Of a stretch of DNA of 64,000 bases, positions 19,401 through 46,400 are shown piece after piece. The notes under the pieces were generated by a model that ran no database searches, was not told the origin of the DNA, and saw nothing but the letters and a program-made list of their open reading frames with translations. Numbering within the stretch: position 1 is the first letter of the stretch; each line of letters begins with the position of its first letter. The DNA is taken from positions 201,190 through 265,189 of the forward strand of contig CACVBU010000948.1 of assembly GCA_902728285.1 (NCBI GenBank), in the 5' to 3' direction. Made by a program: the position numbers and the translations under genes. The DNA is from Clytia hemisphaerica. Lineage: Eukaryota; Cnidaria; Hydrozoa; Leptothecata; Clytiidae.

Positions 19401-22400
19401 GGGAGCCTTCGGGTCGCCCTCGACTGCGGTCGCAAACTTACTTTGCTTTTAGAAGTTCAATTACGATATTCTCACCATCTCGGTGGTCAATTTAATCTAA
19501 GTGAGATCAAAACATCCTTCTGAAATTGTCGTTGAATGATGAAAATCTTGAGTTGAACGAAACACATATAGTGTCTTGGGAATTTCAGCATATGACAGTA
19601 TAATCTCACCAATTTTTGACCATTTGATAAATTAGGTATCTTTGATATTGTTAAACATGCTCTAATTCATTAAATGGTCAAAAATCGGTGAGAATATACT
19701 GTCATCTGCTGAAATTCCCAAGACAATTGTGCTCCATCCCATTTCCAGTTTCCAATTTACTTTAGTCAGTAAAGTGAAACCTGAACCGTTAAGTCAGTCA
19801 GAAGTATGAGGTTATCGATATGTTTGTCTATTTTATTGTTCTTGTATGTGCAAAATGTGCAAATTACAGAAGCCAAATCTCGAACCAGCAATAAAATGAA
19901 AAACAATTGGAATATGAAAAGACGACCATTTTGGAGTAAACATAATCGCGATAGAAAAGGCCGGAAAACAACTACTGCGGTCACATTAACATCGGCAACA
20001 ATGACAACCACCCTATCAACAATGACGACCACCCTGTTAACAGAAACGACCACCCCAACCACAACGAGCCCAACAATAAATTTCCGAATGCCTCAGGTAC
20101 CGGACAGCAATCGACCACCTGGATGTCAGCTCGTGACATTCCTTAAAACTATCGATGTATGCGTACAAAATAACTTTTGCATAACGGTTGAATATTATGA
20201 AAATGTGTATTTATGCTTTTAATTAAATATTCATCATAACCCTGAAATCTTTTTTACTTTCTTTCCTTTCTTCATGTGAAAATCCTCGGAAAAAACTCTG
20301 AATACCGTCCTTGTGTGACAACTGTTTTATAACTTGATACGACATATGTTTTTAGGTCAATTTCTCAATCACAGTAGTTTTCGAGTTCCTTTTATTTTCG
20401 CACACCTCTTAAAATAAAGTATTGGTGCACCCTATAATTTTCGCGAAACTCTTGACTCACTTCTAATTTTATTTTAATTCTTTTGACGAAAAGGCCATGA
20501 AATCATGAAGGTTTTTAGTCTGCACTTTAGCATCTTATACACCCATAAGGTATTTTTAATCTAAATGGAGGGCTTTGCATTAGTTATCGCATAGTGCAGA
20601 ATGCAATATGTGTAATATCAAAATCAAAACCAACATTTGAGTTTTTTGTCTCCTCTAAAAAATGGAAGACGAACAATTTTTGATTTGTTTTAATTCGTGC
20701 TATGGCATTCCAAAGGCTTATAGTAATTTACGGAATAAAATTCCGCCTTTTAATTTACGGAATTTTATTCCGCAAATTACTAATCTACGGAATACGTTGA
20801 TATCTCTTGAAGCAATAGAGGTATATTGTTCAAAATTCACACATGTCTTCATAATGGATCAATGCTGCTACATGCCAAATTTGGGAATATGAAACTTACG
20901 TAAACCGTAATTACGGCCAATAAAGCATTTAGTGCCGTACTGATTACAAAAATTCCGCAAATTACTAATCTACGGAATTCTTAAATAACTTTCGAACCGT
21001 TGAATATCCTATAACGAAATTTGGCACGTATCTTCGTATCCGTCTGCTTCACATAAATTAAATCTCCTACCCGACGTGGGAAGTAGATACGTAAGAAAAA
21101 CGTAACGTGACATAGTGCAAGAATACAAGTCTGCGTATCTCTGGAACGAATATGTTTTTTAGAGAGGACTTTCATAATATACCTTACGTGTTCACACGAA
21201 ATTTGGGCTTGTTGGTCAGATTTCTCTTTAAATTATAGCAGTTTTAAGTTTTGGTGGTGAACGGTTATGGGATGACTACGTGATTTTACGTTTTTCTTAT
21301 GTAACTCCCGTCAACAAGGTACCACAGATCTGATTTTTGGCATGAAGCAGCGTCTTTTAGATACTAACACACGTGCTAAATTTCGTTGCAAGATATATAA
21401 CGGTTCGAAAGTTATTTTAGAATTCCGTAGATTAGTAATTTGCGGAATTTTATTACGCAGATTAGTAATTTGCGGAATTTCAACGTAACTCTCGATGACG
21501 TCATTGTATTGGTCTGAAATTTTTCATGTGAGCTTTGGTCACAAAGAGGCTACTCTGTGCAAATTTTCATGTTGGGAAACATATTCGTTCCAGAGATACG
21601 CAGACTTGTATTTTTGCACTACGTCACATTACGTTTTTCTTACGTATCTTCTTCCCACGTAGGGTAGGAGATTTAATTTTTTTAGAGAGGACTTTCATAT
21701 ATACCTTACGTGTTCACACGAAATTTGGGCTTGTTGGTCAGATTTCTCTTTGAATTATAGCAGTTCTAAGTTTTGGTGGTGAACAGTTATAGGATGACCT
21801 ACATGATTTTACGTTTTTCTTATGTAGCTCCCGTCAACAAAGTACTACAGAGCTGATTTTTGGCATGAAGCAGAGTCTCACGGATACTAAGATACTTGCC
21901 AAATTTCGTTTCAAGATATGTAACGGTTCGAAAGTTATTTGAGAATTCCGTAGATTAGTAAATTGCGGAATTTTATTCCGCAGATTAGTAATTTGCGGAA
22001 TTTCAACGTAACTGCCGATGGCGTCGTTGTATTGGTCTGAAATTTGGCTTGTGATTTTTTATCACAAAGGGGCTTCCCTGTGCAAATTTTCATGTTGCGA
22101 GACTTATTAGTTGCGGAAATACGGACACTGGTATTTTTGCACTACATCGAAATACGTTTTTCTTACGTAACTCCTGTCAACAAGGTTCCACAGAGCTGAT
22201 TTTTGGCATGAAGTAGAGTCTTACTTACTTTTTAAAGAAACGTCTATTGGCACTGTTTAGGGTTACATACCCGCAAATTGACCTAAAGGTCAAATTTTGC
22301 ACCACTCTTCGGATTGCGCATTTGTTTAATTTCAAAGATAAAATACCTTTAAGGTTTCGAGCTTGGATTGTGTATGGAATGCACTGCACAAATTGCAATT

Positions 22401-25400
22401 CTTTCTACGTGGGTAAGACCAAAAGACATGTCGCCACCAGATACAAAGAACATTGTAACCCCGAGAAACCCTCCGCGGTTACAACTCACATAATGACTGA
22501 AAATCATGATTTTTCCATAGATAATATGAAAGTTTTACATAATAGTAATTATCGGATCGATGAAGAGCTTTATATAAAAGAAACGCTGATCATAAGGGAC
22601 CTCAAACCGGACTTGAATGAGCATGTCTCTTCATTCCCCCTTGAGCTCTTTTAGGATGTATGCGTTCCTTTGTGAAATTTAACAACTTGTAATTACCTGG
22701 TAGTAATTTTTTAATTTTGTGATTTTTTGAATGTTGTAAATTGAAATTCGTTTTGATTTTTTTTTTACTATACTTGTGATCATGGTGCAAAGAAGACACC
22801 GAAACGTCAAACATGAATAAAATTAAATTTTTAGTTTTCACTTTTTTTATCAAATTTATCTGGCCCAGCAAGAAATTTTTAGAGTCTTACGGATACTAAG
22901 ATACGTGCCAAATTTCGTTATAAGATATACAATGGTTCGAAAGTTATTTAAGAATTCCGTAGATTAGTAATTTGCGGTATTTTTGTAATCAGTACGGCAC
23001 TAAATGCTTTATTGGCCGTAATTACGGTTTACGTAGGTATCATATTCCCAAATTTGGCATGTAGCAGCATTGATCCATTATGAAGACATGTGTGAATTTT
23101 GTTATTATTTGCACTGTTTTTGGGGAATGACACGTTTATGCACTCGTTCTAAGCCAATCAGATTGCTCATATTTTTTGCACCATACGATAATTCTAAAAA
23201 GAAGACACTTAGTTGAGATTTCTATGCATTTACAATGATTTTTAATTCGCGCATCTTTTTTAGCCCCATTAATTTTCGGGCACTCGGCTACACTTAACTG
23301 GGACTAATGTTTATTTCATGTTGATGGAAAGATAGCAACAAGGGCTAATAAAAGTCAACGAACGGACTAACGTAAAAATGAGTTTTAAAAGAAATCTAAG
23401 AAGGCAGGAATGACCGAATGTAAATATGATATAGCGCTTAAAAGGACATAAAAGTAGTAAAATGTAAACATTGCGTGAACCACGTGTGATTAAAGAGAAC
23501 AATTAAAATCACGTGTCCAAAGCAAACTTGTTAAACGATTGAAACAATCAAAATCAGCCATATTTATTTGTCTCGATTTTTTATTTTGACATATTTTGTT
23601 TTGATTTTGTATCCCGCTGCATACGGTTTGTTTACAAATTTCGTCAGTACGTTTATGTCCCTTTAATGCCAGATTTGGGCAAATTGAAAAAAACGCCATC
23701 AGTGTTTTAAACTCGTTTCCACTACACTATGAATATATCAGGCCTTTCTGATATCTGATATTCCCATGGCGGATTGGCGGCCGCCCACGCTAAAGCTCTA
23801 AAGGAGCGGAGCAATTTCCCATCGGAGAGAAATGATAGTCGGCTTTTGATGTGCCGCACCCCCAGTCGGGGTCAACAGCCTTTGCGCGTAAACCTATAAA
23901 TATTTCGGTTGGACCCGCCAATCCCCGATAACGAGGGCTGGGTTACCAGACCTCCCGCTGCAAAATTCTTGACGTATGTAAACCTTCCAAATGTTGAAAA
24001 TTTTCCCGACCTTTCAGAGCTTTAGCGTGTCGGATGAAAATTTCACCATCTGGGTGCCAGATAAGCCTTTCTTTCGATTTCAATAGAATCATGAAATGCT
24101 AATATATTTAATGAAGCAAGTGTTGATTATCCCAGTGATAAGAATATAGAAGTTAATCGAATTTAGTACTTAAAACTTATTTCCTTTCAAAACAGAAAAG
24201 GAGGGGAAACAGTTTTCACCATGAAGTCAAGAATTGCAATAATTGTGCTCTTGCTTACAATTACCACGACTCATTTTAACCAGTTCATTATTGTAGCGGC
24301 GCAAGATAACTATCCAATGCCGCTTTCGTCAGAGCCTGATGTAATTATACGTAATAATTGTATGACGACGCAGGTATACAAGACAGAACCAATTTTTATT
24401 GGGAACGACTGCTTCTTTATTGAGTACATTGAAGAGATATACATTTGTTGATCGTACTACGGGCACTTCAAGAAGGCAAAAAGAGCGATACTCAAAGAAC
24501 AAGAGAAGAACTTTAAAGAATATTTATTTATTTGTGTTGTATTTTCTTTCTATGAGCAAATAAATTTCTTTAAATCGACTGCACTTATAGAGTATTTTCA
24601 CGCTTTCCAACATGTTCCAACGGTGGTGACTTAAGCTCCGGATTATCAAATTTAACATGCAGTGAACATTTAGCATGCAGTGAACAGTGGCAAGAGAAAT
24701 ATTAGACACGGGCTAATAATAACTTACTTTCAATTCTTTGTATATAAGAGCTATTTCATAAGAACAATTTCAGAACAAAACTGAATATTGAAGGAAGGGT
24801 TAGATTCTATGCAAGTTAAGGGAAAGTGTCTCAATTTTGTTATTTTCTTAGGATAAGAACAGTCGAGCTTTAAAAAGAAAACTGCTTCTTATAAAAAAAA
24901 AGTGTAATTCATCGCTTTGGTAACAGGTATTAGCACATGTATCTACAATCGTGGCTATAACCTGATATCCGGTTACCTTTTACCACCCGCAAGTCCCACC
25001 TCTTTCCCTAAAATGATGTTGAAGTTGACGAATTTTTGCACAGTGTTCCTTCCATCAACATTGATATTGGGGGGGGGGGTGTTTCCAGGATTATAGTTTG
25101 ACCACTTAAATACCTCCAGAACTAAGAGTTATCAGGAACTAAGAGAATAATATCGTTGGAAAGAGGGTTTAAATGTTTGAAGAATCGGCTGAATTCAAGC
25201 ACAGTGTCCAGTAAAGAAATATTAAAACTAAATTACACTTTTTTTGTTTTGTAGGAACAATTTTATAAGAACTATGAGGCTCAAAATCGCTAAAAAGTAA
25301 GAACATTCTAAGAACAATGCTAAGCTTGGAATTACTTATTTCCAAGCAAAGTAATAAAATTATATTTTATTATAAATTCTAATTCAAGGACATTTTTGTC

Positions 25401-28400
25401 CAAAAAACACCATTAAAAAAGGAAAAACCTTTTTTAAAGCCTGAAATAGCACACATTTGGGGGAATAAACAGAGCAACTTAAATTTGGCGGGAATTTAAT
25501 TTGGCGGATGACGGAAAAAATTAAATTTGGCGGGAACTTAAAATTTGGAGGATTTGGACCAAATCCGCCAAACTTTCTTCCCACCAAAATTTCTTCCTTT
25601 AATGTACTTCGATTTCACCCCATAAATAAGAACAGGTTAAGAACAATTTACTGTTTCCTACATGTTAAAGTGTATTCACTTTTCATATAAAAAATACGGT
25701 TTTGTCTTCTTTCCTTTTATTTTAATGTTCTATTTAATTTCTTTTTATTACTTTAATGGGATAAACTTTCGCGGGGATTAAATTTCGTGGATTTCGCGGA
25801 TTTGGGTGTCATCCGCGAAAATCCGCGAAATTAAGTCCCAATTGAAATTTGGAAGGGCCTCATCCGCGAAATATTTCTAAATAAAACTCAAAATATGTCA
25901 GATAAATACTATTTGAATGGTTACTGGCATCAAAGAAGCGCTAATGATGTTTATTTCAACAACCAACATGCATGATTTGGCAGTAAAAGCCACAAAATCG
26001 TGAAAATATTGCCACCAAATAGTGCTAACCGCTAACTAGTGCTAACTAATATTTGAATTTCGCGGATAGGCCCAACCGCGAAATTTAATCCCCGCGAAAG
26101 TTTATCCCATTAAAGTATTCTACTACCCAGACGATGCTTGTAGACCCAGGATGAGAAATTTCTAATTTCGCTCATTAATTAAATAGGTATTTCCTTCAGG
26201 TTTTGCAATGAAAATCACTTTGATAAGACCAGGCGGTAAACCAGAAACATCAGAATAGTGGGGCTGCGTAACAAAATAATCGAGTTTGCGACCGTAGTCA
26301 AGGGCCACCCCCGCCCCCTGATATGGCTATCCACCCGAAGGCCCCCACTCTTTTCCTTGGATTGCTCCACTTATTCTTGATCTCTCTCTCTTTAGCATTA
26401 AGCAAAGAGATACCAAGTACACACCCCATTTCGATTCTTTTGTTTTCAAGTCAGAAAATTCAGTGAGGATGGGAAAAATAGCAGTTTTGCAGTGAGGATT
26501 GGTTTATTTGATTATTTTCAGCGGAGGCAAAAATGAGAGGATAGTTTTCTACCGGGGACGATATTTTGGACAATTTTTCCAGTGGGAAGAACAGAGGTTC
26601 CAGTGGGTCTTTGAGAAGGGGTGTCTGCTCAAAAATCTTTTGGTGGTTCCATTGTTATTTGCTTGGAACACTCAACTCTCCTGTCTAGTGAAGACATTTG
26701 CTCGTACAATTTGGAAATATTTCACTCGTTCCGGATTTTCCGTATATTTTCCGTATATTGTCGTAAAGTATTTCTCATATTGTACTCGGGGTGTACTCGC
26801 AACTGTCCGATAACTATTACGTATTTTTTTACTATCGCCATTTCCTAAATTTTTATTCTTAATATTACGAAATTAAACATACATAGGTTTGAACATTATA
26901 TTTGAATAACACACATCCATATTCGTCCGTACTAACTTCACTCGTTCTTATGTCCTCATGGCCCATGCATTCTCCAAAATTTCTAAAAGGCCTAGTTCAA
27001 ATTTTATATCGGTAGTGATTGTCGGTATGTTTGTCGTTGTTCTGGTGTTTCCGACTATAGTGGTGTCCGTCGCTGTGACGAACGTCGTCGGATTTTGCAT
27101 GGTCTCTTCTGTTGATTTTGTTGGTTGTTGTTGTGTTGTTGGTATTACGACCGTTGTTGGGTTTTGAGTGGAATCGTCTGTTGTGTCTTTGTTTTCAATT
27201 TTTACGAGGAAAAGAAAATGGCAAAAAAAATTGACAAAAATTGTTGAGGCGATGCAGTTGTTTTCGGCGGGAGAAAATGAAAAGTATTTTGAGCAGCCGA
27301 TGGCATTGTCCTCACCAGTTATTAGCCGCCAGGCCCAATGTCAAATATTACTTGACATCGGCATGGAAAGGGCTAGGTAGCTTGTTGGTGGTTGTGCTAT
27401 CGCTATCGTCGGGGTTTGGCTAACCTCTTTGGTTGTCTTTGTGGGTAGAAGGGTTGTTGGTTGTTGTATTGGCGGCTTAACAGTTTCTGTTATTGCCGTT
27501 GGTGTTTCAGAGTTGTTTTGATCACTTCAGTTGTAGTAGCGAGATTATGTATCTGGAATTCTCTATGGCTACGGCTAAAGCGGCGAGGGAAATGACGAGT
27601 AAGGCAAGTAATGGCGGGTGAAAGCAAGTTCGATATTTGACGTACGGCATTATGTCGACTTTGCTTATACGGTGTTTTGGTGTTTTTCCCGTACAGAGCA
27701 AAGTAGACAACGCAGGACAACGATATGTCGCCTTTGGTGCCGACCCGCATGGGCAGCCCCGCAACCGTAGCCGTAGAATATCTCCGATACATAATCTCGC
27801 TAGTGTGTTGTTTTATAAGGCGGCTCTTTAACTGGGACCACCAGCAGGCCTCGCTTAAGTTATTTGATTACATAATCAGTAGAAACACAGTCCTGGCGGA
27901 ACAACGGTAAGGTGAGCAGGGTGAAGGCTCAAAATGAGATAAGAAAAAATCTCATTTGCTCAAAAGTGGGGAGGCTGAAGTCTCAATGTAATTTTATTTT
28001 CTGGAAAACTTTGTATTGCCCTCTATCACACTTTTTGTTACTGGATGCTAATATTAGAGAATTAAAATTAAGTGAGCCAAATGTGTCTTAAACCAGAGCG
28101 AATATAAGTCTTAATTACTGCCAAATAGCATGCACAGTAACTAATATCATGAAGGTAATAAAGATGGAGAGTCAATGCCTTTTGTTCTATTCTGATTTAT
28201 CATCGGAAGCAAACAGCTGTTTGGTTGCTTTGGGAATAAGATGATTAATTTTGGGTATACTCGTAGGAAATATTTAAGATGAATGAAAAGACATTACATT
28301 TTTAACAAGTATATTGAAATATAATAGCCTAGTCATGAAAAATTGAAAAAAACTTCACATAATAAGCACAATTCTCCATACTTCTAGGGGGAGCTGCCCA

Positions 28401-31400
28401 TAAAGCCATCGATAGATTTAAAAAAGAATTACGTGTTACGATTAGGAACCTTGTATCGATCATTTTGTCAGAGTATGAAAACCGCTGCCCACCTAGACGT
28501 GAAGATTTTAAGATAAGAAACTTTCAATGATAATGTGATGCAACTCTCAATGTTAACAAAATGCCAACCCAAAAATGTGTCCTTATGAAATTAATATACT
28601 CTTTTAGTCCTACATCAGTTGAAACTATTTCGAATCGCATTTTAACAAGGATTTTCGGCAAAATTAAGTTTTTCAAAATCAACAAAACAGTCTCTTTCTG
28701 TTCTTATAAATTAATAAATTGATGTTTTTTGCTTCCAATGATGGTACATCAAAGAAAAGCCGATTTGAATAGATTTAAAAAAGATTTCAACAACCATTTA
28801 GATCATCACCAAGACGTTTTCTCTCCATCTATTTCTTTAATACCTTCATGCTAATATATTGTGATTTTGTGATTTTGAAAATCCGTTAACAATTATGAAT
28901 TTTGAAATGATTTTATTAATCTGTTTAAAATTCCTTCTGCTTATCCCAGCTGAAAAATCGGGGATCCTCTAGGTTGATACCGACAAACCCCTCCTTGGTA
29001 AAATGGTTAAATTTATCCTTTATATTGCTTAAACCTAGCCCCATAGACGGATTATTTGATACCCCTGACAATGTGTCCTTTACTCTCATTATAAAGAGGT
29101 ATTACTTAGTCCATATTCTTAGTAGGTATATCGGCTAAGTCGAAAGTAAAACTTAATACGATTAAGATGCAGAATATTTATTCGTTCAACAAAATTAAAT
29201 ATCAATACTATATTCCGTCAACGTCTGGTAAGCACATTTTCGACTCTGTTCATCATTTTCGATAGGTCTATTCTTGTCCGTTATTGTCGTTGTCTTGGAG
29301 AAAGGCAATAATGATGTCATTACCAAGAAACACCATACCACACAAACTTTAGAAAATGCTTTCATCTTTCATCAGTGTTTATGCTCTTTTTCACAAATTT
29401 AGCGAATAAGCTTAGTGACCTTAATATCTATGTGCAACTCGTTTTGATCCTTTTGGCAGGTGTCCCAATTTTTCTTTACTCGAAAAGTTGAGTTATGTTA
29501 TTACTGTTGATAATTTCTCTTTAAATTAGCCTCTAATTTTGATATTGATGGTGATACGGTCCTTAAGCTCGAACGATTTCGCTGGTCTGAAATTATCAAC
29601 AACAATAAAGAGAAATAGGAACAGAAGAGAACAATAATGGAACTTCCGCCTTGAATAAAGGCGTGGTTTTAGGAACCGTTTTTAAGATATCATTGTGACT
29701 TTTTCAATTTTGATGATAATGTCCACTGCCACCACCATCAATTACAACAAGGTCTTATGACTTGTAATGTAGGTAGTTCTGATCTGTTTTATTAAAATAA
29801 GATGTTTTCATGTAGTTTTCACTAAATTACAAGCAATGTTTTAATCTCTGGGTGCCAAGTGAGCCCGTCCCCACAACCGAAACCAAAAATAAAATCTGAA
29901 ATGGACATTTCCATAGAAACCATTTTGTTGAGATAAGATAACCAACAGTTCTCATAGCCCAAACTATCATTTTAAGATGCAGACTTTTTAATAGGCCATT
30001 TCACAGTCGCAAAGCGTAATGGGTAATCAGAACCACTGCGCGCTAATGACGACTTACTATTGGTCCAAAGATTTTAAAAACTTTGAAGATTATTGCGTCT
30101 CGCCAACAGAAAGCCGTTATGGAGGCGCAATCAGTCCTGATTACCCATGATTCATTTCGACTGTGAAATGGCCTCTAGAGATTGCTAAAAAGATGTCAAT
30201 TTTTCAGATACAAAAGACTTATTTCGTAATTCAGTCTTTTTGGCACGGGTCGTAAAAAAGTCGCGGTATTTTACCAACCACCTAACTCGATAAAAATAAC
30301 TCGATATTTTAAGAACAGTCAGCTCAAGAGGATGTGGTATTTTTGGTACGGACAAATAAAAAGTCGCAGTCGATGAAAAATTAAAGTATTCTTAGGTTAG
30401 GATCCCAACACTACCTAAAATTAACATGAAATACATTACATATTATTCTCAATTTTTCGGCTAATTTAATCATGAATCTTGTAAAGTACAGTGGTTGATC
30501 CTCAGAATGCAGTTTCGACGTAAATCGTTGATTACAGGTCGCAAAAAAGTGTTAGAAGGATACTTATTATTTAATGAGTTAAAAAAATGCTATATTTTCT
30601 CGAGAATTAATATAAATCTTGTCAAAATTTGCCCTTTTTTTAGGAATTTGAAGAGCGATACTTTTTGACTAAGTTTGACGATGGGGCGCGTGATTAGAGC
30701 AGGTTATGTTGTAAATATAAAATCACGTTGTATAGGAAGTTTCATATTTATATAAGGAATTCGGAAGAAATCATTCGAAACATATCAGTATTTTGGTATT
30801 TGATCCAGAGCCGGTGAATTAACAATAGAATTTTGGGGGCAGTAGATTTTACAAAATTGACGTCAAAAAGATAAACTCGAAAGACAGAAACTTTGATTTT
30901 CAATCATTATGATATCTGAATATATATTTTTACACAGTGCAATCAAATAAACTTACTAAATTAACAAAACAAAAAAATTCACGACATTCACGGGACTATC
31001 AAAGTTCAATCGCCATTCTTATAAAAAAGCGTGTATTTGATTGTATTTGACTTAAGTTTTTAAGTTCTGTATACCAAAATACCTACATTATACAGACATT
31101 ATATTCGAACTCAACACAGCCATATTCTGTACAAACTTCACTCGTTCTTGTTTCCTCGCTGCCTTCACATCCTCCAAACATTCTGTGAACAGGTGTCATC
31201 GAGGCGATGGTAGTGGGGATGGTCGTTATTGTGTTTGTAGTGTGAGTGTTGTGTTGTGAGCTAGCCGCTGTTGTTTGGGTTGTTGAAGCTGAGGGATGTG
31301 TTGTCTTTGGAGACTTTGAAGAGAAATCTGTTGTTCTCATCTTCGGGTTTTCTTGGATGGTTTCAGTTGTCTTGGTGGTTGTAATCGATTGATGAGTGCT

Positions 31401-34400
31401 TGTCGAGTGTTTCCTTGTAGACATCACGGGTACCGTCGCCGTCGGCAATGTATTTTCCGTTGCCGGTAATGTTATCATTACTGTCGGCCTTTGTCGCATG
31501 CGCCATGCCTTGAAGCGTGACCACTTGCTTTTACCGAAGCCCTCGGTTGGTGTTGTTATTATCATCATAATAAAAATGCATTTCCATATTTTCGCTTTCT
31601 CCATCATATTGTTTTTTGCAGATTTCACCGTTTTCTTCGTACGATGTTCATCAGAGAATTCATTGACATCGAATAAAGTTGAAGTTTGATTTTCACGTCA
31701 TGACACTTATATATTTAGTGTTATCACACTTGGATTTTACCAAACGCTAATATAGAAAATTCGATACATTTAAATGATGAATTAGAATTTCCTGAATCCT
31801 TATGTCGCTTAATACAGACCAAATATACTCTAGGCGTATTAATTTTTGCGAAGTTGAAAAAAATCGCGAAATTTACGACATTTACTTTCGCGAATTAAAT
31901 GAAAAGGAATTTTTCGCGGGCATAAATATTTGCCGCGAAGCAGGTATATTTTTAGTAGAAAATTTGAGTTTTCGGTCCATGAAACCAGTGTTTTGATCGT
32001 TTAAATGTACTGAACCATAACTTTTACACTAAAGTTTATCCTTGATTTCATCAAAGAGGAAAATTTGAGTAAATTTTCTTTTCAGATTATTTTTCGCAAG
32101 CATAAACTTTCGCGAATTGCCATAACAAGAATTTTCGAATTTTGCGAAAAAGGCTAAAATTCGTGAAAATCGCGAAAGCTTCTGCTCGCGAAAGTGAGCC
32201 ATTGCTGCTGAATAGCGTTACAGGTTGTTGAAATAATAAACCTCGTCTAGCGAAGACTTTGAGCAAAACGGGCGCGACTGAAGAACTTCAGGTTACTCTT
32301 ATTGAAATGTCTCTTCCCACCCAAACAAATTTCCTGATTTTATGGTATGGTTATTAGTATGATTCAGAGCTTATTCAAAAATCAGGCACTCTAAAAATTG
32401 ATAAACCCCAATGCACATAATTGACCAAGTTCACTTTTATTTACTAAAATCTTAGGCTGGGATTGTTCTTAACTTGTTATTAGGTTATTGTAAAAATTGA
32501 TCCTGTGTCTTGCTCTTATTAAATTTGTCTTGCAAAGAAAGCAAAGCGTATAAATATGCAAAAAAATGTGTTTAGGAGGCCTCCTGTAATGCCCAGTTTG
32601 AGTTAGAAATCGTCATTTTTGGTCTAACTCGTAAAAATTGGATTGGGATTCATGGTAAAGCAAAAAAAAAAATCAAAAGTGAGTCTTTCCAGCGAGACTT
32701 TAAGCTAAGTTTTTGGACCATTTTTGGTCTACCAGTGATCCAAGAACCTCCAAACTTGGCCCTGCTTTACTTGATTCTGTCCTCCAGCGAATTAATTTGA
32801 AGTTTTACCACTGGGAATCTTTCTATCACTCAGGCAGGTCCTGACTGCTTTAATTCCTCTAACCTACCCCCCCCCCTCTAACCTACCCCTACCACCGCCT
32901 AATCCGCTCTTCCCGCGGCAAGAAAGAGGATACTCTAAGCTATCCAACGAACCATAAAACGAGCTTCTAACTACTTCTAGATCCGGAGATATAAGGCTTT
33001 AAAGTTTGAACTAGCGATTTTCTTTTAAAAAATGACCGTGGCACTTAAAGGGTTAAAAGAAGAATCAGTATTTTTTGTCTGTATAAATCTTTCGTTTCTC
33101 AAATAACTCCACCGATGTAAAGAACACACTTTTGATGTTTGAGGAATCGATACAAGTTGACAACCAGGGAGTCGACCATACCTGGACGTCAAATCAATGA
33201 TAGCCCTTTTGGAGTGATATCGATTTGGTCCATTTTCAAAAGATCTTTCGAACATCTTCTTATTTTCGGTGATGGTTTTTGTTTTGGAGAATGGCAACAG
33301 TGTCGCGCTAACGAGCCAGAAAAATAGCACGCAAAATATTTTCATCTTTCGCCAGGCTAAGGTGGATTCTCTCCTCTCTTGCTCACAAAATATAGCGAAC
33401 GAGTTTCTTGGACATTATGACTGTACCACGATTTCTTTCCATCTTTCTTTGAAAGTGTGACAATTTTAGCAGGTGCTTGAAATTTTCTATATTGGCAAGG
33501 TTCATTTATTTGTCAATTGTTAGAAGTAACCAACAGTTTATTAAATATTGAAAATGTAATTTTTGTGATTTTTAACCCTTAACCCTAACCCTCTAACTTT
33601 GTTCCAAAAAATACACAGTATTCCTCCTGTTTGTTTCTTAGTAGTCCGTTTGGTTGACGGTGCAACCTTTTCTGAGAAACTTGAAAATATAAACAAATAG
33701 AAAAAACTTTTCAGGAAGATTATTTATTTTCAAGAGTTCGACAATATATCTGTCTTTATTCTGGCTTTCCTCCTTTTTTGAAAGACTGGAGACGTCAAGA
33801 ATGGTATAGTTTGACTAGAATTTAGGTGAGAATTCGACCCGCACCAGTAATCCCTCACAAGGTAGTCAAAAAGCAATGTGAAAACCGGCAACAGATGACA
33901 TGACGTCACAAAACGACATGACAAACCTCATCGTCGGGGGAATCCCTTGGGAGCAGTTGGGTGTGTTTTTCATTACCTTAAGGTGAGAGTCACATGAAGT
34001 TTTGAGATTTGGTGAAAAAATTATCGATTTCGAGATTTTGCGCGTTTTATGACCCTATACCCTTTCTGAACACACTCTGAAAATTTTAAGGCCGTAACAT
34101 TTATATTTCCTGAGATATAAGGTTTTTTCTAGACCCTGATCTAAAATATTTTCCTTAGCAACGAAAAATCATACCCGTTGCTAGGGCCCGATTTCTTAAT
34201 GGTTGATCTAAACATAGGATCGTGACATACCAAACGAAAGATCTTTTTACGCCCTTTTCGGGCGTCTAAATCAATACCGCCTTTTTTCGCGGGATTTCCT
34301 AATATGACCTAATCAAAGATGGTAACCAAAGAAATGATAACATGCGGCTAAATCCTGACAATGCGGATCTGTTTTTCCACTTCCTATCTCTCGATCTCCT

Positions 34401-37400
34401 TGTCTATTTTCTGACTTTCTGACTTAGTTTCTCATTTCTGACTGAGTTTTCATACCTGTCAATCATTTGTCCATCAATTTCGACCAGTCTAATTTTCGCA
34501 CCGAGTGGGATTCGAACCACCACCAAAGAAAGACCTTCAGATTCGGAAGCCAGCGCTCTATCCCTTGAGCCAGAAAAAATGCACGCTCGCCACCCTCAAC
34601 GGGGGAAAAGAAGTAAAAAGGGGGAAAAAAGAAGTTGCGCAATCACGAGCAGAGTGGATTCATTTTAATTAAATGCACCTTTGTTTTGAAGGCGCGAAAG
34701 GAGGCAAAATGGTAGCGCGAGAAGGCTTTTCTCTGTGAATGCCGAGGTACGCTATATCATTAAAGAAATCCCAGCGTACCAGAACATATATATCCTCTGT
34801 CAAAGAATATATAAATGTCTGGATTTTTGATTGTGGTGTAAAAATTGCCTCAGAGACAGGGTACTTCTTGCCAAATATCTACTTGTGGTTCCCATGTCAC
34901 ATAAAAAAACAACGTATTGGGTTTTTATCTCGGCTATTTGTATTATATTCATGCGTATTACTACTTTGAATACGGTAAATTGGGAGTAAATTAAACTTTT
35001 TGAAAACATTTAAGCACTTTGAGACATAGGGAAAAAACATACTAATAACTTGCAACAACAGTTTATGTTTTCTTATAATAATAAATCGAAAGGATAAAAC
35101 GAAATAACTCAGCAATTGAATTTTGAAAGATTGCTCCACAACAGAGTTATTTTGATATAAGTGAAATATGAGGCAAATCTGGTTTAGATATTTGAGAGAA
35201 TTCTATATGGTGGGGTGTAAAAAACATCAGAGAAAGAGTTTGTCATTGTATTGTAGGAGTACTATTTTCTAAAACATTAAATAAATGAGAAGAAACATGT
35301 TTCTATAAAGTGTTATACCCTAACATACAGAATAAAGTATCCCAAAGAAGAGATTTTTTAGGTTAAAAATCAGTCTAAAAATATTCATGGTAAGTTTTCA
35401 CGATGACACCTTTTAAGTCAAAATTTTAATATGTCATTTTCTAAGAGTTTATTACAAAGCACAATAGAGTAGGCTACCGGTCCCCAGAGATGTTTCCCTG
35501 AATTAGCCGCTCAAGACGGCGGCTTTCCAACAATTCCTACTGAAATTGAATAACAAAAAATATATATTTTAGATTAATTTCATGTGTGATAAAGAATATA
35601 CGATATAGGATATATTATTGGCACACATTTACCCACAATTGTTTTTAATTATATTATAGTAAATAGTCAAAGTGACAGCGCAGTAGACAGCCGGCTTAAG
35701 CAAGAAAATTGACCAAATCCAGTGATTTATCATTTTGGCAATGCCTTTATGAAAAATATACCAATATTTACAAAGTTTCTGCAGAAGCTACATTAAAGTA
35801 TGCTTGATTGAAGTCTTAGTAAAGGTTTTTTCTGAATGAATATGTGTCTATACTCCATTTTATAAAAACCACAGTTGTCGGGCGGGCACCGGTCAAGCAC
35901 AAAACAAGGGAAATGGTAAACGGCTAACACCTGCAACGGGCCATAACTTTATGAAAAATGAGTCAATTTCTCCCAAATTTCTGCATAAGCTTTACTGAAG
36001 TATAAGCTTAATAAAGTTTCAGTAAAGGTTTCTTCCTACTTGTACATTATTCAAAATGACAATGTCCGTCGGAACAAGCATGATAACTCTAGCCATACTC
36101 CACGGTACCAATTCATTCCTTTAGGCCATAACTTTATGAAAATTTAGTCAATATTTTCCAAATTTCTACAGGAACTGTATTGAAGTATACTGAACCTAAT
36201 TCTAATAAAGGTTTCTTCTAAATAAATCTGTATCCATGATGTAAAATAAAGGTGACGGCCGTCAAAAGCACGGTTAGGATTGTTGAAGTCCAGTTTGGCC
36301 TAATACTTCATGAAAAATTGATCAATGTTTCTCAAATTTATACAGGAGCTGTACTGAAGTATGCTGAGTCAAATTCCAAAAGAAGTTTCTTCTACATAAG
36401 TCTGTGTCAGAAATGTAAAATCAAAGTAATAGCCGGTACAATCATGAACATTGGCCGTCTCCAGCGGTGCATCATTTTGGGTCATAACTCCTTCAAAAAT
36501 GGAGCAATCTGTCTCAAATTTCTACAGGAGCTGTAATGAAGTATGCTCAATCGAAATCCAGTTGAGTTTTCTTCTGAATAAAATCGTGTCCATGATGTAA
36601 AATCAAAGTGACCAACCAACCAAGTACAAGAAATCAGTTCTGCATCAAACATTCAAATTCCACAGCAAAAGAAAAAAGAACAAAAAAACTCCCAGTAAAT
36701 TGGGATTAGAGAAACCAACTACTCTATCACAATTTTTAATACTTTTCATGTTCTTATATCGTTGATTTGGTAGTATATTTCATAGAAAATGAAGAAAGAA
36801 GAAATTTCAGTCAAAAATTCTGCTTGAAGCTGTGAAGGCTTATCCACTTCGGCAGACATCTTGTTTTGATTTTTTTAACAAATCAGATCACTAGAATTCT
36901 CTAATTTTGCCGTGAACCAATCAAAACGCGGGATTTCAAAATAAAGCAATATGATTGGTCAAAATAGAGAAATAGAGAATTCTTTTGTCGGAAAATAGAG
37001 AAAATAGAGAATTCCCGTGAAGTGATTGGTTAGAATTCTCTATTTTTCTCTATTTCAACAAAAGGCCTATTGTTCAAATTCTCTATTTTTGATGGAATTC
37101 CGAGTGCTTTTCTCTACACCATCGCCGCACAGCAAAATCACGCAATTCATAACATTTAATACCAAACTGGCAAAAGACGGGGGTAATGTTATTATAATAT
37201 GGGTAAAAGTACCCCTTTTTTAACCGGACTGAAATTCGAGCCGTTACTAGCAACCCTGCGGGGCCCAAGGCGCCGAGTATGCACCCGGCACAGTGACAAG
37301 CCGTTACTAGAAACCCTGGCCCTACATTGAAGACGCCAAAAAATAAAAATTTAAAGTTTCCGCATTGTCAGGATTTAGCCGCTTCTTCTAAATGATATTT

Positions 37401-40400
37401 TTAAAAACATACAAATTTTGGAGGCTGTCAGCCAGTCAGCAGTGATTTTGACTATGAAAACTGCTTTAATTTGGAAATGTTGGATTGACTGATGACATTT
37501 TTAGCTCTTTAATGTCATTCTTCTCAACTAAGAAAGCTTGAGCTAGGTGAAACCAAAGACTTGATTCTCAAACTCAACGTTTTCGATATGAACTTAGTTT
37601 GACGACACCGAAAAACTTATTAAAGGACGAAGACCAAAGGCATATTCAATGATGTATCTATTTAAAGATCCAAGTGTTAAAGGAATTGAAAGCCTGGAGG
37701 CTGGTTTAACAATTGTATGTGATGAATTATTGAAGGTCTGGGGCACTCCCTCTGCCTGCCTGCGCCTCCGCCCTTTGCTTTGGCTGGATTATTTACATTC
37801 ACGAAGAAATCGTGCACGGCTAGATGTCCAAGTGGATTCTTGTATCACAACAGATCAACTTGAGATTAACCTATAACTGGCAGAATCAGTGAGGAAAATA
37901 TACTAGGATGATCTATTACATTGAAAATATGGTTTTTGTTGTGAAAACACATGTAAATTTTGACTTAGATCAAGGTTGATGTGGAGTTTGGCGCAAAATT
38001 TTAAGGATTGACGCACATCACGTGAAAGTGATAATTTGGAATTTCTGGACTATTTTGATATTTCAAAGCCATTTTTAAAGTATATAAAGTAGAACTATAG
38101 TCCATTTTAGTCAAACAGCAAAAGAATTTTGTAAAACGGTCGATTTATTACAGAGAAATAGAGATATATATCTACTTCTGACTTTACGGACCGTTTTCTC
38201 AAAATAGGTTTCAGGGGGTTTTCGCACACCTTGGCAACGTTTTCTCAGGATTGACAAGTGCTATGGACTTGAAATTTTCAGTAGAAATTCAATTTGTGGT
38301 CTAGAGTGTTATGAATGGATTACATTTTTGAAAAAATACTTTTTAGATTTCTAAATTCAAAAAATGCATTTTTTAGCTTCCAGACCCCCTGGAATTAAAT
38401 TTCAAAAAAAAATTCCATTCATAACACTCCTTATCCAAATATTAACAAGCTGCAAAAAAAAATTTTCTGATAGGTTTTGTAGATTTTCCTAAAGCGTTGA
38501 CACAATATTTTCACAGCACATTACCCCCTGGCTGGTTTTACCCCCATCTTGGCTATTTTAAGACTTTTTTTTACATTTTTGAAATCATCTATTGTTAAGT
38601 TACCTCTGTAGAAAATTCATTTAAAAATCTCTTCAAGTTTAAAAGTTATACAGGAAAATGTAAAAAATCAACTTTCTCAATTTTTCATGTGACTCCCACC
38701 TTAATTCCATTAATTTTCGCGCGCCTTTTGTTTTCGCGCAGAATACATGCGCGTAAATCGTCAAAAACACTAAAAAGAGGATATCTTTTTACTGTTTTTG
38801 AAACAAAACTGCAAGATGCGCAAAAATTAAAGAATGCGCGAATAATCTATTTTACGAGCTGCGCGAAAATAAAAGGCGCACGAAAATTAACGGAATTTAG
38901 GTATTTCGAATCTCTCAATTTTGGGTGTTTGGTCGATTTTTATTGCTTTAAAGAAATCCGACTTTTTGTCAGCTTGGGAGAAGTGAAAAACGGCCCAATA
39001 TAGTCGCAAATTTTGGCAATGCTGGTTGTTTTTGCTTTGTTTTTGATAGACTGGTGAATTAGAAATCAATCCCGGTGAATTCTTAGCAATATATTGATTA
39101 GCGTGAATATGTACCTGAGGCTGCAAACTGATTTTTTTAGGCTGGCGAATTGAAAATTCTTTCGTGCCTTGTACCGGCGAAATTTGTCGATCGCCGGACC
39201 TAAATATGACCCCCTGGCTTTTAAATTTAATCTTCATATCTTGAAGTACTTTTGGGGAAAAAACCCTAGAATCTTCACTAGGTAAACCATTCGTCTATTG
39301 AAAAAGAGAAGTCAAGATACACCTTCATTACCCCGTTGATGGTGGCTATATACTAGACTGGAGTTGTTTATTATAATGCGTGTAATACAGTAGTATAGGC
39401 GTTATATGATAATACGATAATTGTTACGGGATTAGTTTGTATACTAAAATTTGTTCCCTCCATTACTTTTTGTTTTATTTCTACTATATCTGAATTAGTC
39501 GTCTAGCTTGCTAGACTAGCTATATACAGATGTATTTTTATTCGGTAATGCCGCCTTTAAAGTAGGGGGTTTTCGATGCGGGAAGCAGCAAGAATCATGA
39601 CCTGCATGTAACCTAGTAGGGCTGGATTGGGTTAGGTTAGATTAGGTGTATGTTTCTTTTCTTTAAAGTTGATGTAAAGTAGTACAATGTGTACGAGGCT
39701 AATCAATAGCAACAAGGTTATTCAACAAAGGTTATTCTGAGAAGCTTGAAAACACAAACAAAAGGGCTAAACTTTTCAGAAATATTATTTATTTTCAAGA
39801 GTTCGACAAAACTGGTGGCCAGGTATCAAGTAGGGTCATAGTGCGGAAAGGGGTCTGACCCCCCCCCCCCTTAACCTTTCAAAATGCGTATTCCCCAAGG
39901 ATTTTTGCGGACAAAAATAGCTAACAAATATATGTTTGTTTGTTTTTTTTTGTTTTTTTTATATATGATTTGAAAAACTACATTACACTTACGAACATAT
40001 ACTACCTACAAAAACAAACACAGAAAAAATAAATAGCTCCTCCCCCCGCAAGGCACTAAGTGATATCGCCAAGGGCAAGTGTCAAATATCTTTAGAGAGA
40101 GAAAGCGAAATAATATAAACTAAGACCAAATAGCAATGCTTAAAAAATAATCTACAATATATATGTAAGCCCCCCTTTTTAAATTATCCCCCTTCCTTGC
40201 AATCCCCCCTTTTTTCATGAAAATTTCTGATCCCATTTTTTCATTTTTTCGGAAGGTGTCACCCCCCTTCCTCCCCCCCCCCCCGTTAAGAAAGGGGGAT
40301 CCTATGCGGGTTGGAATCAGGTTGTAATCAGTTATTTCGACTCCCCTGCAATAGTTTTGGTTTTTATATCATTTTTTCATAGATTTCAATAACATTCCCA

Positions 40401-43400
40401 ATACAATGATACTTTTAAAAATTGATAGCACTGTTTGAAAATGCAAAATTCGTGAATCTTTTCCGTACGCACTTTATGACAAGTGAACTTTCTTTGTTCA
40501 CTTATCTTTATCAGCGATAATTCTTTTGGACTTCTTTTTTCTAATACGACTCCATTTGATCTGGTATTAGGAGTCGTGGATGGTGCCAGTTTTGATGCTT
40601 CAGCTGACGTCGTTGTTGCCAGTGTTGCGTTCTCCTCTTCTACTGTATCGACCCTTGGTGTTGTCTCTGGTGAAAAAGTGTTCAACTGATGATACGGCTT
40701 TTTCTTTCCCCAACTACTATGTGGCCATCTATTCGATACTATCCTTTTAGTAGTTGTGTCATCAAAAGAAGGCTTACTCGTGAATGTGTCTTTAGGGAGA
40801 AAAGATTCGCCCAGCACTCTCCCTTCACATAGGCTCACATAACAGGTACCAATGACAAGGAATAAAATCACATAAAATTTCGGTGAAAACATTTTAAAAG
40901 GAAAGTAAGCCTTCATAGATCTGATACTTTAGATCTAATAAACCCAATACAAACTCATCCACTTTTTTATCCTACCTTCGTAATGACCGGGGTATTGTTT
41001 TATCTGAAAAGTGTTATAATTGGCCTAGCTGCTTGAAATACATGATCTATATGTTGTCCATAGTTTTAGTTTAAGATTCGACTCCCCACAAAGATTGCTT
41101 TTTTGGATTTTGCGGTTATTCAAACTTCAGTGCGTTTCGTTTCTTTTCCTACGCTAAGTTTTAGCCAAGTCCACGTCAGTACTTCTAAGTTGTTTTAAAA
41201 GATTATAGAAAACACAATTGACGTTCAAAAACCTCAGAATTCTTTTGCAAAAAGCCCCTCTTTAAAGCATTTCTGCAAAATTTCAACCTCCTCTAAACGA
41301 AAATGTCTCCAATTTCCTCGAGAAAAAAACAAACCCAAAGATCAATCAGGTTAAAAGAAAAAATGGGATAGGAAAATTACATTTCTTTCTTTCGCGGTTG
41401 AGAGAATGTTTTGTTCAAAAATTGGCCTATTTTGCCTTAAAAAGACCAACTTTAGAGGTAATTTTTTAAATTCTGCTAATATTTATGTTTCGTGGAATTT
41501 GATTTTGCGGATTTATTAAAAAACATTGAAATTACATTCCGCGAAAATTTCTTCCCGCGAAGATTTCTTCCCTTAAGGTAATAGTGAGAGCCACTATGTT
41601 CTGAAAGCATCCTTCGTGTGCACAGATTTGTTAAAAGCAAACTAACTTTTTAAAATGATCAATTAGGTCCATAAGATCACAAAAACGAGTGGTGAGAAAA
41701 TTTTTGACCATTTTGCTGGTCCCCATGTGACGTCATCACTTTTGCTAGTGCTTGAAAATGAAAGTGAAAATTAGAAGCTCATATATGGCTCAAATGTAAG
41801 ATATTTATCCAAGGATTCCAAAAAATATCACAACATATACCTGAAAATCAATATTTGAGAAGCTATAAAAAATAGCTTAAAAATGACGTCATCGACAATC
41901 AAAAAATCGTCAAAATCGAAAAAATTTTGTTTCGTTTGAAAGAGGACCATCTAGTTGACAAAAAGTATTACTCCAAAAAAATCTGAATTAAAAAAATAGT
42001 TTGCTTTTAACAGGTCTCTTCGCGCGAAAAACATTGTAGCTCTCACTATAAGCAGATATTCAATAGGTAAAAGTTGGTTATTGAGATTTATTAACACAAG
42101 GTGATGTAATATTCACCGAGTTGGATATACATTACCGAGGGTTAATAAATCCAATAACCAACGAAAACCTATTGAATATTATGTTTTATTATATACCTAG
42201 AGGCAAATAATATTAGTCCCATAATCGAACGTTCGAATGTTTTTCTTTATTATATTAACGATTTTCATAATTAAAATTAGTTCATGAAATCGACAATAGA
42301 TTTATTTTAATAAATTTGTTTGATAATGAACAAGAGCGAAAAAAAATCAAACTTTGAAAGAAAACTTTGAAAAAAAATTATATACATGTAGGCAAAAACA
42401 GCCGTTGAATAATTCCTGATATACGATGGCTATTATACCAGGGTAGAATTTTTTTCTTCAAAGTTTTAGTAACAATGTAGCGTATATCTGTATGCTTCAA
42501 CGTCCACACATACATTTCCAAGGCATACTTGCATTTTGACGAGCTTCTTGACCTTGAAACAAAATACTGATGCTGATGGGCGGTGGTGTAAAATATTTGC
42601 TTCTTTCAGAGCCTCTGATCGGATATTAAAGCCGTCGGCTGGCGGAAAATGATGTTGGGTTACTATAAAAACCATACAGAACACAACCATTCTTATTTTA
42701 TTGTTCATCAAAATCATAATTTTTTCAGAGAGACAAGTCGTAATGTGTCTTTACGAACTTGCATAAGCTCAACGACTCTAAAAAAGGTCAAAGGTCTTCT
42801 ATTAAAAAGCTACTTAGGCTTATGTACAAAAAATATTCACGACTTGAGATATATTTAGGTTTAGCCACTATTATAAATGGTTGCAACTAAAATACAGATT
42901 TAAACATTAATAAAAGTTACACTGGAATCGTTTTGATAGGGAAGCAATTTATCAGCCTTTGATAAAGTGAATATGAAAGATCTTTTATATCGCAAAGTCG
43001 TACAAATTCAATGGGTCAAGTATATTAAATCAATTAGCAAATTTGACGAGACCAAGCTGCATGAAATACATGCTCTATATATGATCTGATGAGAGAACTC
43101 GGGAAAATAAACCCGTTCTTAATTACAAAGTATTTAAATTAGAAAATTCAAAAATAAGTTAGAGTTCAAGTTTTAGCGCTATTGTCAATGAAATTAGTTG
43201 GCAAAAGATTTAAGAGCCATTTTTCAAAAAAATTAAAGTCTGTCTCAATATAATTTGCAGTGGGGACAAAAAAAAGGCTATAACTTTTGATAAAATTCGA
43301 ATTAGATAGAGGTTTTGTGCTTGTTGAAAAGACAAACAGGAGTGGAATATTATCAACAACAAAAAATTCAAAAAAATCGAAAAATGATGATTGAAAATGA

Positions 43401-46400
43401 AGAAAAAGAAGAAAATCAACTTCTTTAATAATTGTGCTATAATCATCACTTATTGAACGGTGAAAAAGAAAGCGGCTATTATATTTAGATTTTCCCGACA
43501 TGTTTTCGGACGTGCTATAATTTTAATCATCATTTTCACACGAGTGATTCTTTGATCTTAAAACATCATCAACGTGAAAACATTTTCAAAAAAAATTATT
43601 CCATCGAAAGATATAGTCGAAAGTTTATCACTAGTTAACTTCAAAAACCACCAAAAAACAACAAAAAAGAGCCATTTTTTAAGTCAACCAGGGCAAAGTT
43701 TTAAGCTGTAATTTTTGACTGAATAAATATTTTTGAATTTTTTTTCGCATTTATGACGTTCTAAGATAGAAGAAATTCTGATATAAAAATGAAGATCATA
43801 GGAATAATCTATAGGAAGATAATTTTCTTCTTCGTTTTTCATCTTCATTTTCCTTTGTTTAAAGATTTTTCTTTTTTGCTAATATTCCACTCTGGATTAT
43901 CTTTTAAACGAGCACAAAACCGTTTTCTAATTCGAATTCTATCAAAAGTTACAGCCTTTTTTCTCTCCAATGCAAATTATGTTGAGACAGACTTTAACAT
44001 CAGACTTTGCTGAAATTTGGACTAAATTCCAGCTTGATATATCGGTAGCTAACTAAGCAAAAGCCGGAAAAAACTTAAGTTTATACAAAAGAGAGGGTCA
44101 CAAAGGATATTCGCATTATTATCCTTTTAAATTGAAAACATCATTATAATAAGTGTAATTGCAGTTAGGGACATGGTCAAAATCTTGATCAGGCTCATTC
44201 TTCTTTTCCAGCTGTTGAATTGTGGGAATATTGCTGCATTGAAAGCGGAAGAGATCACAGTTGTATTGAAAGAAATCTTGGAAGAAGAGCGAATCAAAAG
44301 GTTTGTTGTAGTTTATGCTTGTTGTTTACCAGAGCTGAAGGATATACTGCATACTAACGCACACTTGAATTATCCAATCAGAGAGTTTTTTTACTTGATA
44401 TTCGTGCAAATTACACGGAACCGGATCCGTGATCTAATTTGAAACCCTTCCATTCGATTTGTCCGTTTGTTTCAGTTTTGTTTTTGCTCCTTTTTTATCG
44501 ACTCTCCGTTCTATGAAATACATAGGTTGCCGAAGAAGATAGAAAAGAAAGCGGGTTTGAAGACGCCAGCCACACCACGCGAGTTCATCACCAAGACAAC
44601 GGCCGGACCAACCGAAGTGGAAATGATCACACTATCCTCTGATGAAAACGACACCGCTAGAAGTAAGTCTTTGGAAAAAAAGCTTTTTGAGTTTACAGTA
44701 GGGTATAATGGTTGAATTAAATAATCCAGTGCAGACTGATACTTATACGAGTTCTCTGTAAGCATTACCGAATTTATGTATCACATTTTTCATGCAGCGG
44801 AGACGGTAAGTTTTTTATTTTTCTAGATCCTGAATGACTAGCGACTGACTGAAGTCGTTTATGATCCGTATAATACAGTAATATTGGTGTTACAAGATAA
44901 AGCGATCATCGTAACGGGATAATATCAGTTTATATAATAATATTTGTCCCCTTTTTTTGCTTTACTTGGATTAGTCGTTTAGTATGCTAGACTAGACCAA
45001 CGACGACGGTAAATCATTACTTTTACCGTCTGGGTCAAAACTGTCCGTTGTTTCAAATCGTTAAGACACTCCTTCATTATCAAAAGGGTAGCAGGACGAG
45101 TGAGTTAGAGCACCCGCATTTTTGACTCTTGACTTTTGAAAATTGAGGAAAGTAAAAGCGCTTATTAACCGTCAGAGTCATAGGCTTCTGCTCATCCTCT
45201 AGCGAAAAGTTATATCTATAGAGGTCTGCGATTCAGAGTATCGGAGTCAGGATTAAAAGTAAACCTACATGTCGCAAAAAACCAAACATATATAAACTTG
45301 CTCCTATTATTTCGGCGACAGTCGGTTGGTATTTCATTGCGATGCTTCCGATTGACTAATAAAGGGGTGGTAAACTTTAACTGTCCGTATGAGCGTATAG
45401 TTGCATCAACTCACTCGTTGAATAAAAGTAATGTTTCCTTTTATTTTCAGACCCGATCGCGATTGTTAGCGACGAAAGGTTTGTGTGTGAAACCTTTAAT
45501 TTAATGGCAATTTAAAGAATTTCTCTAGAATTTCTTCAATATTCTTCATATAACTGGAATTAATTTTGATAACTTGTGAACCACTGAATTTAATAAAAAT
45601 CTATTCGTTTTCACATTTGAAAAGAATTTAGTGAAAAGTCAAATTATTTTAGACATGGTTGGCCATCAAACCCTTAAATTTATAGTATTTTGTGGATGTA
45701 CATGCACATATTACGATTCCTTTCTTCAACTTCAATTGATTCTCTTGTCCATAGCGAACCACCCAAAGAACAAGTCACAAATTACCTGGTAAGTCTATTA
45801 TGAATATGATCATTGCCCTTTATACCTTGGACAAAGCAAAATCTTTGATCGGAGTTTTTTGAAAGTGCTATTCTAATGGTAAAACCTCCAATTAACAGAC
45901 ATTCTAAAAGATTAACACCTGTGATTAGCCATCAATAGGCCATTTCCATCCTAGCCAAAAAAGTTTCCAAAATGCGGACACTCGATTAGCTGACCCTCCA
46001 ATTAACAAACAAAGTTTTTTACACAAAATCGCCCAAACCCTACTTTTCTAAAAGGCGGACACTTCTAATTAGCGGACACTAACCCTATTCCCCGATGGTA
46101 TCCTCTAATTGGAGGTTCCGTTCTTGTAGCTTGATCCAGGGTATAAGGTCAATGATTGTGATTCTAATCTTAGAATTATGAAACATGGAGAAAAAGATAT
46201 ATCATAGATACCCCTAAATGCCCAGTTTCTTACTGACACAGACCCTCTTGGACCCGTTAGTTTCATATCCTGAACTATTCGGGAACGAACTATTTCGAGA
46301 TGTCGAGATGTATAAAAATATCTATCCATGACTTAAATTCAGTTTTTTAAAAGGTAAATGCTGTCAGTTGGACGAACAAAAAATCCTCTTTCTTTTTTAG

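Follow-up and report, generated by a model that had tools for sequence, protein, structure and literature searches.

A clustered family of small secreted proteins with a C-terminal four-cysteine domain in the hydrozoan Clytia hemisphaerica

We analyzed a 64,000-nucleotide stretch of the Clytia hemisphaerica genome (assembly GCA_902728285.1, contig CACVBU010000948.1, positions 201,190 to 265,189 of the forward strand; hereafter the window), focusing on a group of small genes whose predicted products end in a domain built on four cysteines (C1 to C4). Eight related loci lie at 19.8-42.7 kb of the window, a plus-strand pair first and then six minus-strand loci in succession (Table 1). An intact copy has a signal peptide and, at the C-terminus, a domain of about 30 residues; the three longer copies also carry a Thr/Ser linker and a basic stretch that contains Trp. 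These clustered loci almost certainly represent a real coding family, because the cysteine pattern exceeds chance, the N-termini are signal-like, the members share residue similarity when pooled, two of them share an upstream element, and intact copies are clustered with decayed ones. A preliminary description, made from the letters alone, had reported six open genes and one broken copy in this interval; the open reading frames (ORFs) lie where it placed them and begin with hydrophobic N-termini, the family is real and 26868 indeed has no single open frame, but five rather than six copies (19806, 24221, 31083, 40386 and 42466) are open through the domain, 33025 leaves it after C2, and an eighth locus, 29195, had been missed.

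Table 1. Loci of the cluster, their cysteine domains and the shared upstream element (window positions)
Feature	Position	Strand	Description
19806	19806..20222	+	Open gene, 138 residues: signal peptide, basic Trp-containing stretch, Thr-rich linker, C-terminal domain
19806 domain	20124-20219	+	Spacing x11-x5-x11
24221	24221..24451	+	Open gene, 76 residues, without linker; domain at 24359-24448
26868	26868..26972	-	C-terminal domain; its copy is split over more than one frame; blastn match to 31083
29195	29195-29365	-	Truncated copy, 56 residues: signal peptide resembling 33025, one cysteine, 12-residue tail, stop
31083	31083..31607	-	Open gene, 174 residues: signal peptide, basic Trp stretch, long Thr/Ser linker, domain
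31083 domain	31086-31169	-	Spacing x11-x4-x7
33025	33025..33345	-	ORF, 106 residues, with signal peptide; C1 and C2 at 33124-33162
40386	40386..40916	-	Open gene, 176 residues: signal peptide, basic/Trp stretch, Thr/Ser linker, domain
40386 domain	40389-40481	-	Spacing x11-x4-x11
42466	42466..42717	-	Open gene, 83 residues, without linker: signal peptide and domain
42466 domain	42469-42561	-	Spacing x11-x4-x11
Upstream element, 40386 copy	41024..41052	-	29 bp, TATA-like start, 108-136 bp upstream of ATG
Upstream element, 42466 copy	43052..43080	-	335-363 bp upstream of ATG

The copies differ in how much of this plan they retain. In the linker of 19806, a 21-bp unit is repeated in tandem 2-3 times (positions 19996-20055); all four Thr codons are in use in the Thr linkers. 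A 154-bp segment just upstream of this gene (19572-19725) matches its own reverse complement at 86% and looks like a palindromic mobile-element remnant. Near copies 31083 and 26868 are 75% identical over 92 bp (blastn E 5e-11), and the 26868 domain reads C-x11-S-x5-C-x11-C, with Ser at the C2 position; upstream of it lie a signal-like stretch (about 27567-27650) and, between the two, a Thr-rich linker in another frame. Splicing could conceivably join these frames, but the close relative 31083 occupies a single one. 33025 carries around C1-C2 a 17-residue match to 19806 (tblastn E 0.03-0.06), and the N-terminus of 29195 in turn matches 33025 (tblastn E 5e-5). Because 33025 abandons the domain after C2, it is not a full member, and its sequence identifies it as a degenerate copy. 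Together these copies suggest a family that evolves by duplication and decay.

Hydrophobic N-termini are present in all five open genes and in 33025 (lowest value 2.44). With a signal-like hydrophobicity cut of 2.4, which was chosen after the members' values were known, 8 of the 42 ATG-initiated ORFs of at least 70 residues in the window pass, and six of these eight are 19806, 24221, 31083, 33025, 40386 and 42466. A further small ORF with a signal-like N-terminus lies just beyond the cluster (44173-44442, plus strand), with no Pfam match in its own frame and an end lacking the cysteine domain.

The preliminary description had also proposed a fixed cysteine spacing. The complete arrangement C-x11-C-x4/5-C-x11-C is found at three of the eight loci (19806, 40386, 42466), but 24221 and 26868 lack C2 (24221 has Phe at the exact C2 position, with its arms remaining x11/x11), and the second arm of 31083 is four residues short, which is most simply read as a loss of four residues because the near copy 26868 has x11/x11. 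Across the six loci readable to the end, C1, C3 and C4 are always kept, and C2 is kept in four. To gauge this pattern against chance we used second-order Markov shuffles of the window, a control that is partly after the fact since the pattern was derived from the tested genes themselves. With its end required to fall within 3 residues of a stop, the strict pattern is present three times in the window and in none of 200 shuffles. A looser version occurs four times, compared with a shuffle mean of 0.385 and maximum of 2; if an in-frame ATG at least 35 residues upstream is also required, the mean falls to 0.01 and the maximum to 1. Length is less telling for the short genes: the window holds 26 ATG-initiated ORFs of at least 80 residues vs. 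12.85 expected, so ORFs as long as 24221 or 42466 are not rare by themselves; at 130 residues or more there are 8 vs. 0.575 expected.

Similarity among the members extends beyond the cysteines. Holding the cysteines fixed and shuffling all other residues (5000 shuffles; 15 pairs, p uncorrected), we found that pooled similarity among the five open genes reaches p = 0.0002, the floor of this test, and that 19806 resembles 24221 (p = 0.0002), 42466 (p = 0.006), 31083 (p = 0.006) and 26868 (p = 0.011). The paralogues are nevertheless very divergent, with only 2 to 7 identities in 22-27 non-cysteine positions outside the 31083/26868 pair. In a first profile search, 26868 was the sole independent match (E 3e-6), the other E-values being inflated because the five query loci were themselves in the profile. 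We additionally built leave-one-out profiles and ranked each locus among the non-training ORFs, over 2138 ORFs in all; 31083 (E 6e-7), 26868 (E 3e-6) and 19806 (E 0.011) each came out on top, the first two largely because each sits in the other's profile.

The most distant member by residues, 40386, joins the family by its architecture, its cysteine spacing and an upstream element in common with 42466, not by residue similarity. The two copies of this 29-bp element are identical at 26 of 29 positions (blastn E about 1e-4). The local alignment score of the two upstream regions is 43, vs. a shuffle maximum of 40, and theirs is the sole pair above z = 3 among the 21 compared. A 26-bp pattern drawn from the element has two matches, and none in 100 shuffles, whereas for its 18-bp core with up to 3 mismatches 0.26 matches are expected by chance and 1 of 100 shuffles gave two, so that support for the element comes mainly from its full length. 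Given its TATA-like run, the element may be a core promoter.

Fast evolution, as suggested in the preliminary description, is borne out by the divergence of the paralogues but not by the mode of selection. For 31083/26868, the pair found by DNA similarity, we calculate 0.78 synonymous (dS) and 0.19 nonsynonymous (dN) substitutions per site over 28 codons, and the resulting dN/dS of 0.24 (Fisher p = 0.007) places this pair under purifying selection. Part of that constraint may be older than the decay of 26868. The estimates for the other two pairs, 19806/33025 (17 codons, dN 0.29) and 33025/29195 (30 codons, dN 0.39), are biased and count for little: their stretches were selected on protein similarity, a choice that favors low dN, and their silent sites are saturated. 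Positive selection finds no support in the dN/dS of these three pairs, and the family thus shows constraint and age rather than positive selection.

Next, we searched for relatives. A match to a described domain family, the outcome that the preliminary description had set against its own reading, did not turn up in Pfam, NCBIfam or PDB. No member gave a Pfam match above cut-off (the only matches, all below it: Mucin, E 0.071; AJAP1_PANP_C, 0.11; US29, 0.96), NCBIfam, whose models are made for prokaryotes, likewise gave none (the Thr-rich linker of 31083 drew TIGR00066 at E 0.027), and a PDB profile search returned no credible relative, only Bloom helicase at E 0.26-0.27. Against a set of 5.8 billion proteins, a six-locus profile (whole 42466 and 24221, with the domain pieces of 19806, 40386, 31083 and 26868) drew 10 candidates, none at E ≤1, and 40386 alone drew 30, none at E ≤10; these searches require shared exact words, so distant relatives could be missed. 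There were no matches in viral contigs for 42466, 19806, 24221 and 31083, none in prokaryotic contigs for 40386 and 19806, and none in Rfam and tRNA searches. Since the protein search was word-limited and the sets covered were this protein collection and viral and prokaryotic contigs rather than any named animal proteome, relatives in sister species may well exist unseen.

The cysteine formula itself was also sought in print, and no described family with exactly this formula was found in the open-access literature searched. The nearest arrangements are partial, such as the CX11CX4C of TAFA4, which in the motif as printed continues with CX5CX10C, and the CX11CX4CC printed for avian AvBD11/ovodefensin and gallin. 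The closest is the scorpion alpha-C6Tx venom family (HtC6Tx2 and relatives), secreted proteins whose role is given as unknown and whose formula is printed as X2CX11CX5CX11CX12CX7CX5 (PMC12897845). Compared by this formula only, its first four cysteines are spaced x11-x5-x11 exactly as in 19806, but two more cysteines come after them (x12, x7), six in all, whereas the proteins described here have at most four in the domain and end within 3 residues of C4; because of those two further cysteines we do not file the family under alpha-C6Tx. The earlier statement that no named family has this pattern accordingly stands for Pfam, NCBIfam, PDB and the protein set, with the qualification that alpha-C6Tx, as printed, shares its first four cysteine spacings.

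What fold might such a domain adopt? Both arms are 11 residues long in five of the six loci readable to C4, with a loop of 4 or 5 residues between them (the lost C2 of 24221 and 26868 being counted through), and equal arms around a variable turn suggest an antiparallel hairpin. Hydrophobicity alternates along the arms, with polar residues on the cysteine face, in four of five domains (difference 1.73, p = 0.0035; p = 0.008 for the four open genes alone), a comparison that omits 31083 because of its short second arm. On these sequence features we favor, with some reserve, a long amphipathic beta-hairpin. The two 11-residue arms would pair with each other, a C2-C3 bridge would span the turn (x4 or x5), and C1 and C4 would clamp the open end, producing an outward-facing head that may bind targets or act on membranes. 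The three longer copies are 27-37% Thr, Ser and Pro, and their Thr/Ser linker is probably O-glycosylated and would serve as a stalk. Domain charge ranges from -6 to +3 and is positive in two of five cases (+2 and +3; the others -2, -4 and -6).

Several known systems resemble parts of this arrangement. Beta-hairpin antimicrobial peptides of the tachyplesin, protegrin, arenicin and capitellacin type likewise form a single hairpin with cross-strand disulfides, as proposed here, and lie C-terminally in a secreted precursor; the turn spacing of tachyplesin is C-x4-C, like the x4 loops of the present family. A review of such peptides gives lengths of 11-25 residues and charges of +1 to +8 (PMC13001179), compared with 28-32 residues from C1 to the chain end and 11-residue arms in the five open genes, of whose domains only two are positively charged. 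The periculins and arminins of Hydra are closer in genomic setting, being described as taxonomically restricted antimicrobial families of small proteins with a signal peptide and clustered paralogues (PMC10945409), and the present family likewise has no relative in the word-limited searches. The Hydra proteins, however, are described as cationic with a complex cysteine pattern (PMC10945409). In the present family bipartite charge is seen only in part, with a basic N-terminal part and an acidic domain in 19806 and 31083. The SCRiPs are small cysteine-rich secreted proteins that, compared by description only, have more cysteines in a different framework; domain cysteines here number at most four, and no member has a Pfam match above cut-off. 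SCRiP-like genes of octocorals form tandem clusters with lineage-specific expansion, as the venom study reporting them summarizes (PMC11896702). BRICHOS gave no Pfam match at E ≤1.

Taken together, these comparisons lead us to a tentative overall reading, in which the cluster encodes lineage-restricted small secreted animal proteins with a hairpin head that act as surface effectors, most likely in defense. By this reading they would be extracellular effectors at the body surface or in a gland, acting on microbes or other organisms. Considered by itself, and judged by analogy with the systems above, a role in defense or another organism-facing effector function is possible, though we would not call it probable. 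It is doubtful, but worth stating, that the domain is a previously undescribed animal one, namely a disulfide-laddered beta-hairpin head placed at the extreme C-terminus of mucin-stalked secreted proteins, through which a clustered gene family would engage microbes or other organisms, its surface chemistry differing between paralogues.

Other explanations account for some of the same features. The genes could encode venom or gland peptides, with a disulfide-rich toxin-like head that stinging or gland cells deliver and a propeptide formed by the Thr/Ser region; the clustered, lineage-expanded octocoral genes (PMC11896702) and the printed spacings of the scorpion family (PMC12897845) point this way, but a KR pair within 20 residues before C1 is found only in 40386 and 33025 and not in 19806, 24221, 31083 or 42466, the two extra scorpion cysteines are absent, and no Pfam match was found; we regard a venom origin as unlikely. 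We consider it equally hard to credit, or slightly more so, that these are structural or mucus-layer glycoproteins whose linker forms a mucin stalk and whose cysteine domain dimerizes or binds matrix. The Thr/Ser/Pro content of the three long copies and the odd number of domain cysteines in 24221, which would allow intermolecular bridges, are consistent with that idea, whereas 24221 and 42466 have no linker at all, and the Pfam Mucin match to 19806 is probably compositional, scoring 13.6 bits against a cut-off of 34.7. Signalling or neuropeptide precursors, with the basic Trp-containing stretch as active peptide and the cysteine domain as carrier, are rather improbable: 40386 reads KR-...-SSW-GKKK, an arrangement resembling an amidated-peptide site, and the basic stretch of 19806 ends in GRK, so that peptide sites are plausible in the former and partly in the latter, but no Gly-dibasic site occurs in 31083, the stretch is missing from 24221 and 42466, and no peptide there proves conserved when the copies are aligned.

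Two further explanations appear very improbable. One sees shortened peritrophin-type (chitin-binding) domains, retaining the first four cysteines of a six-cysteine fold such as the alpha-C6Tx pattern suggests; that pattern, printed as CX11CX5CX11CX12CX7C, opens with the three spacings of 19806. In their printed N-terminal fragments, the alpha-C6Tx peptides are, to our eye, reminiscent of peritrophin-A domains. Yet spacing is the sole likeness noticed, between families compared by formula rather than alignment, no readable copy has the last two cysteines, the proteins ending at C4, and neither CBM_14 nor any other chitin-binding Pfam model matched the five open genes at E ≤1. The other supposes no family at all, only unrelated secreted ORFs with a coincident cysteine pattern. 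Leave-one-out profiles fail to single out 24221, 40386 and 42466, as coincidence would predict, but the strict pattern absent from every shuffle, the pooled residue similarity, the common upstream element, and one architecture within one cluster argue strongly for shared descent.

Within our preferred reading of hairpin-headed secreted effectors, a number of observations pull the other way. In the leave-one-out ranking 42466 came 15th, 24221 19th and 40386 914th, and, its cysteines aside, 40386 does not resemble the other five readable loci (p = 0.14 to 0.64). Its hydrophobic alternation is also reversed (-0.65). A strict two-bridge ladder is at odds with 31083, given its short arm, and with 24221, which has lost C2. 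Spacing alone does not imply a hairpin, because the six-cysteine scorpion family has the same first four spacings, and the domains are mostly non-cationic, unlike classical membrane-active hairpins and the cationic antimicrobial peptides of Hydra. Two of the three pairs used for selection, moreover, carry the biases already noted.

The remainder of the window places the cluster in its genomic context. A C-terminal exon of GREB1 lies at 676-1626 (Pfam GREB1_C, E 6e-34), with 12 relatives in public assemblies at 39-81% identity, and this sequence match marks the window as animal DNA. We take an ORF at 11.8-12.8 kb to encode the RNase P protein PRORP, a reading that leans on characteristic motifs, since its Pfam match (E 0.0004, 20.5 bits) falls below the curated cut-off. 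Between the two plus-strand members, an ORF at 22217-22654 (plus strand) contains a GIY-YIG nuclease domain (E 4e-6) and is probably a retroelement remnant, while 47740-49048 holds a tandem array of 2.8 copies of a 466-bp unit with 85% matches. A long Gln/Pro/Ser/Thr-rich open frame at 62546-64000 (plus strand) runs past the window end; its start is reminiscent of the end of an NFAT-type Rel domain, and the strong guanine-cytosine (GC) skew there is probably due to this frame. GC content across the window is about 30-42% per 2-kb block.

Clusters of secreted orphan genes are common, and the general phenomenon is well known; such families carry much of the species-specific chemistry that invertebrates direct toward microbes, prey and neighbours. 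The value of this cluster lies in its single-frame genes, its compact domain with a simple cysteine rule, and the presence of intact beside decaying copies with measurable constraint.

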